64,000 nt of DNA, from NCBI RefSeq assembly GCF_021129305.1, contig NZ_JAJOMB010000005.1, positions 310,001 through 374,000 on the forward strand, read 5' to 3'. Every line of letters starts with the position of its first letter. Position 1 is the first letter of the stretch. Shown here in pieces: positions 18,820 to 20,717 of the stretch. The DNA is from Kineosporia babensis (GTDB lineage Bacteria > Actinomycetota > Actinomycetes > Actinomycetales > Kineosporiaceae). The notes under the pieces are model-generated. The model did no database searches. It was not told where the DNA came from and saw only the letters and a list, made by a program, of their open reading frames with translations. Position numbers and translations under genes: made by a program.

Positions 18820-20544
18820 TCAGCGCCCCACGGAACGGTTCACCGCGGACAGCACAGCCTTCATCGAGGCCCGCACGATGTTCTCGTCGATCCCGACCCC
18901 CCACAGCACCTGGTCGCCGACCTGGCACTCCACGTAGGCCGCAGCCTTGGCGTCGCCACCGGCGCTCATCGCGTGCTCGCTGTAGTCCAGCACCCGGACC
19001 GAGACACCGTGCCCGGACATCGCGTCACCGAACGCCGCGATCGGGCCGTTGCCGACACCCTGCAGGGTGAACGGCGCACCGTCGTCGACGATCTCGACGC
19101 GCAGCCGGTCGGCCCCGTCCTCGTCGCTGGTGTGCTGCATCGACTTCAGCGCGTACCGGCCCCACTGCCGCGCCGAGGAAGGCAGGTACTCGTCCGAGAA
19201 AATCGTGTACAGCTGGCCCGGGGTGACCTCGCCGCCCTCGGAGTCGGTGTGCTTCTGCACCACCTGGCTGAACTCGATCTGCAGCCGGCGGGGCATGTCC
19301 AGCTGGTACTCGTTCTTCATCAGGTAGGCGACGCCACCCTTGCCGGACTGGCTGTTGACCCGGACCACGGCCTCGTACGAGCGGCCCACGTCGTGCGGGT
19401 CGATCGGCAGGTACGGGACCTCCCAGACGATCTCGTCGACCGTCTTGCCCTGCGCCTTGGCCACCCCGGCCAGGGCCTCCATGCCCTTCTTGATCGCGTC
19501 CTGGTGGGAGCCGGAGAACGCGGTGTAGACCAGGTCACCGCCGTAGGGGTGACGCTCGGCCACCTTCAGCTGGTTGCAGTGCTCGACCGTGCGCCGGATC
19601 TCGTCGATGTCGGAGAAGTCGATCTGCGGGTCGATGCCCTGGCTGAACAGGTTCATCCCCAGCGTGACCAGGCAGACGTTGCCGGTGCGCTCACCGTTGC
19701 CGAACAGGCAGCCCTCGATCCGGTCGGCCCCGGCCTGGTAGCCCAGCTCGGCCGCGGCCACCGCGGTGCCCCGGTCGTTGTGCGGGTGCAGCGACAGGAT
19801 CACGTTCTCCCGGAAGGCCAGGTTCCGGTTCATCCACTCGATCGAGTCCGCGTACACGTTGGGGGTGGCCATCTCAACGGTCGCCGGCAGGTTGATGATC
19901 ACCTTGCGCTCTGGCGTGGGCTCGAAGACGGCCAGCACCTCGTTGCAGATCCGCTTGGCGAACTCCAGCTCGGTGCCGGTGTACGACTCGGGCGAGTACT
20001 CGAAGTACACGTCGGTGCCGGTCATCTCGTCGGCCAGCTTCTTGCACAGCCGCGCGCCGTTCAGCGCGATGTCGACGATGCCGTCCTCGTCGGCGTTGAA
20101 CACCACCTTGCGCTGCAGCGTGGAGGTGGAGTTGTACAGGTGCACGATGGCCTGCTTGGCGCCCCTGATCGACTCGAAGGTGCGCTCGATCAGGGCGTCC
20201 CGGGCCTGGGTCAGCACCTGGATGGTGACGTCGTCGGGAATGTGCCCGCCCTCGATCAGCTCACGCACGAAGTCGAAGTCGGTCTGGCTGGCGGCCGGGA
20301 AACCGACCTCGATCTCCTTGTAGCCCATCCGGACCAGCAGATCGAACATCCGGCGCTTGCGCTCGGAGTTCATCGGGTCGATCAGGGCCTGGTTGCCGTC
20401 CCGCAGGTCGACCGCGCACCAGCGCGGGGCCTGCTCGATGCGCTTGTCCGGCCAAGTCCGGTTCTCCACGGCGACGTTGATCAGCTCGTGGAACGGAACG
20501 TACTTGTGCACCGGCATGCCGGAGGGCTTCTGGGTGTTCTTCAT
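18820..20544 (-). CDS. leuA: 2-isopropylmalate synthase
   Basis: 574 residues. Condenses acetyl-CoA with 2-oxoisovalerate in the first committed step of leucine synthesis. The catalytic TIM barrel has [13 protein letters not shown] (residues 46-58) and the metal ligands in [16 protein letters not shown]. The C-terminal LeuA regulatory domain, which binds leucine, begins near residue 435. The ATG at 20544 is preceded by AAGAAGAGG; an in-frame ATG at 20616 would lie inside the attenuator and is unlikely. Preceded by a leucine-codon leader peptide (20635-20682). Confidence 0.97.
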
Positions 20545-20549
20545 CGCTT

Positions 20550-20617
20550 GGTGCCTCTTCTTGGTCTGAATCTGCTTCGCGTTCCAGGACGGTCGGCCGG
20601 CATGCAGAAGAACCACC
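20550..20617 (-). promoter_or_regulatory. predicted Shine-Dalgarno-sequestering hairpin of leuA
   Basis: In the leuA mRNA, GGUGGUUCUUCU (20617-20606) can pair with AGAAGAGGCACC (20561-20550), which contains the leuA SD. The helix has 6 plus 4 pairs with a 2x2 internal loop. Upstream, GGCCGG just after the leader stop can pair with CCGGCC near 20596-20601, giving competing folds. No U-tract follows, so control would be at translation rather than by intrinsic termination. Derived by eye; no energy calculation was done. Confidence 0.55.
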
Positions 20618-20634
20618 GCGACGAGAGGACCGGC

Positions 20635-20682
20635 CTAGCAGGTCCCGCCGCGGCGACCAAGGAGGAGAAGCTCCGAACGCAC
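20635..20682 (-). CDS. leuL: leucine-rich leader peptide of leuA
   Basis: A 15-residue frame starting at GTG: MRSELLLLGRRGGTC, then TAG. Four consecutive Leu codons (CTT CTC CTC CTT) sit in its middle, exactly what a ribosome-mediated leucine attenuator needs. It ends 90 nt before the leuA ATG. A second in-frame GTG at 20691 overlaps the candidate -10, so I prefer the shorter form. If transcription starts 7-8 nt after the -10, the transcript would begin at this GTG, i.e. be leaderless. The family knowledge is that leuA leader peptides occur in actinobacteria; the assignment here rests on the sequence. Confidence 0.8.
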   Translation of the reverse strand: MRSELLLLGRRGGTC

Positions 20683-20689
20683 GATCGAC

Positions 20690-20717
20690 ACGATACATGG
20701 GCGCCGGGCCCGGGCAA
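20690..20717 (-). promoter_or_regulatory. candidate leuA promoter
   Basis: Minus strand: TTGCCC (20717-20712), a 16-bp spacer, TATCGT (20695-20690). The predicted start falls at or within 1-2 nt of the leader-peptide GTG. An alternative -35 is TTGTTG at 20720-20715. Weak matches, supported mainly by position. Confidence 0.45.

Follow-up and report, generated by a model that had tools for sequence, protein, structure and literature searches.

How a short leucine-rich reading frame might control the leuA gene behind it is the question raised by the window analysed here, 64,000 nucleotides of a Kineosporia babensis contig (NZ_JAJOMB010000005.1, positions 310,001 to 374,000; the source genome comprises 9.4 Mb in 89 contigs), and in Streptomyces and its relatives the control of leuA has been unsettled since the leader mutants of 1999 and the LEU element of 2005. 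On the minus strand, leuA occupies positions 18820..20544, beginning with an ATG at 20544, and its product, 2-isopropylmalate synthase, scores above cut-off against NCBIfam NF002991 (898.6 bits) and TIGR00970 (850.4 bits). Upstream on the same strand lies a leader ORF (20635..20682) that starts with GTG (20682-20680), ends with TAG (20637-20635), encodes MRSELLLLGRRGGTC and has homologues before leuA in other lineages. It contains the four consecutive Leu codons, CTT CTC CTC CTT (20659..20670, minus strand), that the original prediction, made from the letters of this stretch, had described as a leucine leader peptide, and the feature is real: an ORF with at least three consecutive Leu codons is found at most 320 nt before leuA at 137 of the first 142 loci collected, a set that holds a few duplicates (e.g. 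L001 and L002) and to which 100 more leuA upstream regions were added. The leader peptide is identical in six genomes of the window's genus, its own and five others, with synonymous variation among the Leu codons; variant leaders of 13-16 residues are present in the family's other seven genomes.

The feature is a member of a known actinobacterial element. The LEU element that Seliverstov et al. (2005, PMC1262725) described before leuA consists of a Leu-run leader, a pseudoknot and a base stem in which the Leu codons pair with the SD, and lacks a terminator, and the window holds the same parts: a Leu-run leader ORF before leuA, pseudoknot helices (matched to the 2005 element at the level of its text description) and a base stem joining the run to the SD. 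The leader, the pseudoknot and the Leu-run:SD stem were thus already published for leuA in 2005, and the system is not new here. That study covered about 20 genomes, with leuA plus one transposase, and rejected leader-peptide attenuation; what the present analysis adds are counts over the class, the codon bias, the spacing of the promoter and the copies that precede leuB, leuC and LeuA-dimer-like genes. Rfam release 15 gave zero matches at gathering score in the window, and at E<=10 over 20400-20800 its four sub-threshold matches were all unrelated. A covariance model, R1, built from 71 sequences including the window's own, has its only match below E 0.1 in the window at 20670-20614 (68.6 bits, E 1.8e-15), and 284 of 296 genomes of the class contain a match at E<=1e-4, counted per genome whatever the position relative to leuA. 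Across the phylum, 52 of 346 genomes match at E<=1e-3, with 32 of these inside the class, five strong matches outside it (E below 1e-8) and the remaining 15 weak. All five strong out-of-class elements (L249, L251, L274, L275 and L277) lie upstream of leuA. Candidates for further copies in the window's own genome are weaker, the next best having E 0.004, and L295-L297, which we read individually, were unconvincing.

Our reading, to which we assign a probability of about 0.6, is that the leuA LEU element combines a leucine leader peptide (leuL), translated from a leaderless mRNA, with a pseudoknotted RNA that controls the translation of leuA. With leucine plentiful, ribosomes would complete the leader and depart, and the leader, now free of ribosomes, would form stem A and the pseudoknot, holding the CUC-CUC-CUU codons against the leuA SD and so keeping leuA translation off. 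With charged leucyl-tRNA scarce, a ribosome would presumably stall on the Leu codons and cover the anti-SD, and the SD would then be freed and leuA translated; both the stalling and the direction of its effect are suppositions of this scheme. The twelve bases of the Leu run would act as sensor and lock at once. Sequence and comparison between species together establish the leader ORF, the leaderless-type promoter spacing, stem A and pseudoknot B; that the Leu-sensing codon run doubles as the anti-SD has support for each of its parts, and as a whole we infer it.

The original prediction had suggested that the leader may be read from a leaderless mRNA, and the comparison supports this. The -10 motif TATCGT (20690..20695, minus strand) lies 7 nt before the GTG, and 149 of 158 leaders have a TANNNT motif ahead of an in-frame ATG or GTG at a spacing of 4-9 nt, which in 121 is 6 or 7 nt (four further loci, which have no in-frame leader start, lie outside the 158). 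Scans at shifted positions count no more than 30 at a shift of 5 nt, 23 at 10 nt and 16 at 15 nt or beyond. A sigma-70 scan demanding a -35 found no promoter-like site around the leader. For this species the leaderless transcript is thus predicted from the -10 spacing; for leuL1 of S. lividans TK24 (MRFGLLLLSCRGEGL), likewise a 15-residue Leu-run leader before leuA, the start has been mapped, and PMC8079986 describes the transcript as leaderless and as having no typical terminator. A related arrangement is provided by the mycobacterial poly-Cys uORFs (Canestrari 2020, via PMC13236596), in which a leaderless short ORF senses an amino acid and controls the translation of its operon, although there the amino acid is cysteine and the LEU pseudoknot goes unmentioned in the excerpts of that account used here.

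Actinobacterial leader peptides before ilvB and trp have been tied to terminators (PMC1262725, PMC8079986), and in the same way a stalled or finished leader ribosome might decide whether polymerase reaches leuA, by a Rho-dependent or other form of transcription attenuation; acting via Rho, it would require no intrinsic terminator. Against this, the terminator scan found no terminator-like hairpin on the minus strand in 20500-20800, its single match being on the plus strand, in agreement with the predicted absence of a terminator and U-run, and the base stem terminates on the SD itself. We consider transcription attenuation unlikely, and the initiation of leuA translation, the level named by the original prediction, is the likeliest point of control, with ribosome stalling as its presumed trigger. 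The leu leaders of C. glutamicum and C. diphtheriae also have four consecutive Leu codons before leuA, but the portions of PMC4046766 and PMC5784534 consulted describe them as attenuators, without the LEU fold, and state that no start could be assigned for the C. diphtheriae leader.

For comparison of the RNA structure, an element detector gave a match in 225 of 242 leuA loci, some of these picks being wrong, and in 213 at a stricter score; thinning left 169 sequences, 164 of them with a usable start. Two wrong picks, L100 and L114, are inside the n=163 pairing tests and the 104-row stem A test and were dropped elsewhere; a third, L174, falls below the stricter score. Stem A joins the codons past the Leu run, CCGCGRCGAGG, inside the leader ORF (20643..20656, core 20653-20644, minus strand) to the downstream CCTCGTCGCGG (20613..20626, core 20625-20616). 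Over 104 sequences (the two wrong picks included) 98.2% of its cells are paired and 8 of 11 pairs have changed on both sides, a pairing level that none of 500 shuffles reaches, and a shifted partner leaves 38-70% paired. Since the C-terminal leader residues are RNA-paired in stem A, their conservation is explicable by RNA pairing. From the loop of stem A, GGCCGG (20630..20635, minus strand) pairs with the downstream CCGGCC (20595..20600) to form stem B, a pseudoknot. The original prediction had seen in these two strands a competing fold; they are instead the pseudoknot of the LEU element. Stem B is stronger within species (-14.22) than between them (-12.61; p 1.9e-9, n=161), and draws limited to a single member of each family (99 rows, 37 families) favoured the own pairing all 500 times, with a median p of 0.0037. 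Among its types, GACCGGC/GCCGGTC, CGATCGG/CCGATCG and CTAAGCC/GGCTTAG have changed on both strands. At least five pairs were found in 115 of 162 real sequences compared with 742 of 1620 shuffled ones, a moderate excess; own against cross is the stronger test of this stem. Compensatory changes in relatives, which the original prediction proposed as a check, are present in stem A and stem B.

The base stem connects this structure to leuA: positions 20665-20656, in and next to the Leu run, pair with 20565-20554 in ten pairs with an AA bulge (-11.9 kcal/mol), the 3' arm, ACCAAGAAGAGG (20554..20565, minus strand), carrying the leuA SD. The duplex of run and SD is stronger within a species (-10.14 kcal/mol) than across species (-9.18; p=0.0013, n=161), and when a single sequence was drawn from each of 37 families (99 of the 161 rows), the own duplex was the stronger in every one of 500 draws, with p<0.05 in 325 draws and a median p of 0.034. 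Shuffled versions of the SD region are likewise poorer partners of the run than the real one (n=163, L100 and L114 among them); an unbroken series of at least eight Watson-Crick pairs is present in 9.8% of own combinations, 2.0% of cross and 0.55% of shuffled ones (n=163), and in 71% of the sequences the segment that best complements the run lies at -25..-3 relative to leuA, where uniform placement would give 28% (n=163). L055 even has 12 contiguous pairs, G-U counted. The leuA start, and hence the SD window, was picked partly by its anti-SD match, which favours the run:SD pairing relative to shuffled controls and not relative to cross controls. In the 50 sequences passing a spacing filter, the run:SD difference from cross combinations had p=0.13 and that from shuffles p 8.9e-6. 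Covariation of CTG with CAG is weak (p 0.016 and 0.024, relatedness ignored), and none was seen for CCTCC with GGAGG (p 0.39). Sequence and comparison together show that the Leu-codon run is complementary to the SD region of leuA.

The choice of codons points the same way. CUY makes up 434 of 480 codons at the last three Leu positions, compared with 18 of 56 (32%) at the fourth-last (p 1.7e-21) and 1366 of the 3810 CUN codons of leuA (36%), and the last Leu codon is CUU in 137 of 162 leaders. Because CUC and CUU are decoded by one tRNA, the excess of CUU points to the base sequence and not only to tRNA sensing, and tRNA sensing alone accounts less well than base pairing for a constraint limited to nine bases, those of the last three Leu codons (CUC-CUC-CUU), which look like the anti-SD of 16S rRNA. 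The coding and base-pairing roles of the Leu codons could be separated directly by synonymous changes.

Folding was done with ViennaRNA, which cannot handle pseudoknots. With a ribosome placed on the Leu codons, the openness of the SD over 159 sequences rises from 0.26 for the free RNA to 0.43 or 0.37, and is 0.30 with the ribosome at the stop; as this gain partly reflects the mere removal of upstream RNA, we added a masking control. On average the SD gains 0.16 in openness when the run is masked and 0.02 when other 12-mers are (71 of 162 sequences; p 4.7e-7), the run being strictly best in 28 of the 71 and in the top tenth in 38; in this window the gain is 0.40 compared with 0.04, the best of the 14 masking positions tried. 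In the unconstrained window fold the SD is unpaired with probability 0.445, paired with the run with 0.187 and with the arm named by the original prediction with 0.168; once stem A is imposed and the strands of the pseudoknot are set aside, the latter two become 0.321 and 0.333. Under an imposed LEU fold, SD openness is 0.301 without a ribosome and becomes 0.757 when the A site sits on the first Leu codon, or 0.69 when it sits on the second; in the unconstrained fold a ribosome on the first Leu codon shifts it only from 0.445 to 0.49. The folding of this window by itself is ambiguous, which counts against the model.

The arm in question, GGTGGTTCTTCT (20606..20617, minus strand), is by eye complementary to 20561-20550 with ten Watson-Crick pairs, one G-U and one mismatch, and was proposed as the element that sequesters the SD until it is displaced by stalling on the Leu codons. 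Within the genus this pairing has support, since GGUGGUUCUUCU or an equivalent pairs inside the last 28 nt ahead of leuA in all six genomes (-9.4 to -14.4 kcal/mol, figures taken with no control run, with two of the six genomes alike and the pairing of L005 lying upstream of the SD core), is stronger than that of the Leu run in five of the six and dominates some of the window folds. Over the 50 sequences, however, for which the pseudoknot masks were one or two bases off (they were correct in the final window folds), the corresponding region is not above its controls (own -11.61, cross -11.46, shuffled -12.27), and the conserved arm is the Leu-codon run. The folds also give the wrong sign: with the ribosome on the seventh or eighth leader codon stem A is broken and GGUGGUUCUUCU shuts the SD (about 0.84), and in the unconstrained fold it closes the SD (0.845) with the ribosome on the fourth Leu codon, so that the arm would shut the SD with a ribosome late in the Leu run, contrary to the demands of leucine starvation; this sign counts against our own model as well. 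We consider it very unlikely that GGUGGUUCUUCU is the sequestering arm of the system in general; in the window's genus it is a second anti-SD candidate, and both arms may be active there.

The element also has copies elsewhere. At least two R1 matches occur in 80 of the 296 class genomes, and of all extra matches we examined 97 (17 + 80 regions), to which tblastn assigned 35 leuA targets (second or main copies), 34 leuB, 13 leuC, seven related to LeuA-dimer-like genes and eight unassigned, three of the latter (L344, L346 and L357) looking spurious. The leuC leaders have LLL and a leaderless-type start in 13 of 13; those of leuB have V/L/I mixtures such as MRQVLVLITCRGGA, with such a start in 24 of 34; and those of the LeuA-dimer-like genes have LVV or LLV, with such a start in four of seven. 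For the leuA copies as first oriented the figure is 29 of 38, five of other classes included. The LLL leaders stand directly upstream of leuC (L298-L301, L303-L306, L278 and L283-L286), all in family f19, presumably Microbacteriaceae. In the 34 leuB loci (L281, L290, L294, L307, L309, L310, L312 and L316 among them), a distance of about 230-745 nt separates the V/L/I scaffold, in which the rare GTA is often used, from the downstream leuB. Among the matches listed in the open-licence literature, the Lopatovskaya et al. 2010 survey aside, there is no report of a LEU element before leuB or leuC.

These codon patterns bear on the role of the peptide. The S. coelicolor leader mutants did not behave as in classical attenuation (Craster 1999, as relayed by PMC1262725), which counts against our model, and because of them Seliverstov et al. 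doubted attenuation and favoured a binding protein. Such a regulatory protein, of the ML1624 family in the 2005 proposal, would bind the LEU element and leave the leader peptide incidental, a proposal argued from those mutants together with the phylogenetic pattern (PMC1262725). Yet the codons track the target gene, with LLL before leuC and most leuA and V/L/I mixtures before leuB, and an in-frame leader start is conserved with its -10 at a fixed distance, and we regard an incidental peptide as quite unlikely. Returning to translational control by leader and pseudoknot, a wider reading can be put forward tentatively, as a possibility somewhat short of an even chance: the sensor codons would be the anti-SD lock, and the scaffold a re-programmable cassette of one translational leucine regulon across Actinomycetes, absent from Rfam, with LLL directed to leuA and leuC, V/L/I to the small ORF and leuB, and LVV or LLV to LeuA-dimer-like genes. 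If so, the paradoxical S. coelicolor leuA mutants would have lost lock and sensor together. The leuB-type elements count against our main model, as pairing of their base stem to the SD of leuB is little above cross combinations (own -8.99, cross -8.62, shuffled -8.76) and with the SD of the small ORF nothing above them (own -9.63, cross -9.60), and run and SD thus give no sign of coevolution there. Near-universal in the class sample, without a match in Rfam 15 and present before several leucine genes, the element is relevant to annotation and to strains that produce leucine and valine.

The small ORF lies between the element and leuB and has an ALQxxxDxRDNGG-like end (at +286 from the element start in L335 and +107 in L327). 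Sought by its D[RL]RD[NQG]G-like motif, an ORF of 20-46 residues follows the element in 29 of 34 leuB loci and five of the eight unassigned ones; at E<=1 the four sequences sent to Pfam and the three sent to NCBIfam gave no match. Short proteins are also encoded behind LEU-type elements in L287, L288, L291-L293, L360 and L371, some of these elements having LVV or LLV leaders; the five proteins measured are 131-167 aa long. Of four scanned, two match PF08502 (LeuA_dimer), and these LeuA-dimer-like proteins are possibly stand-alone LeuA regulatory domains.
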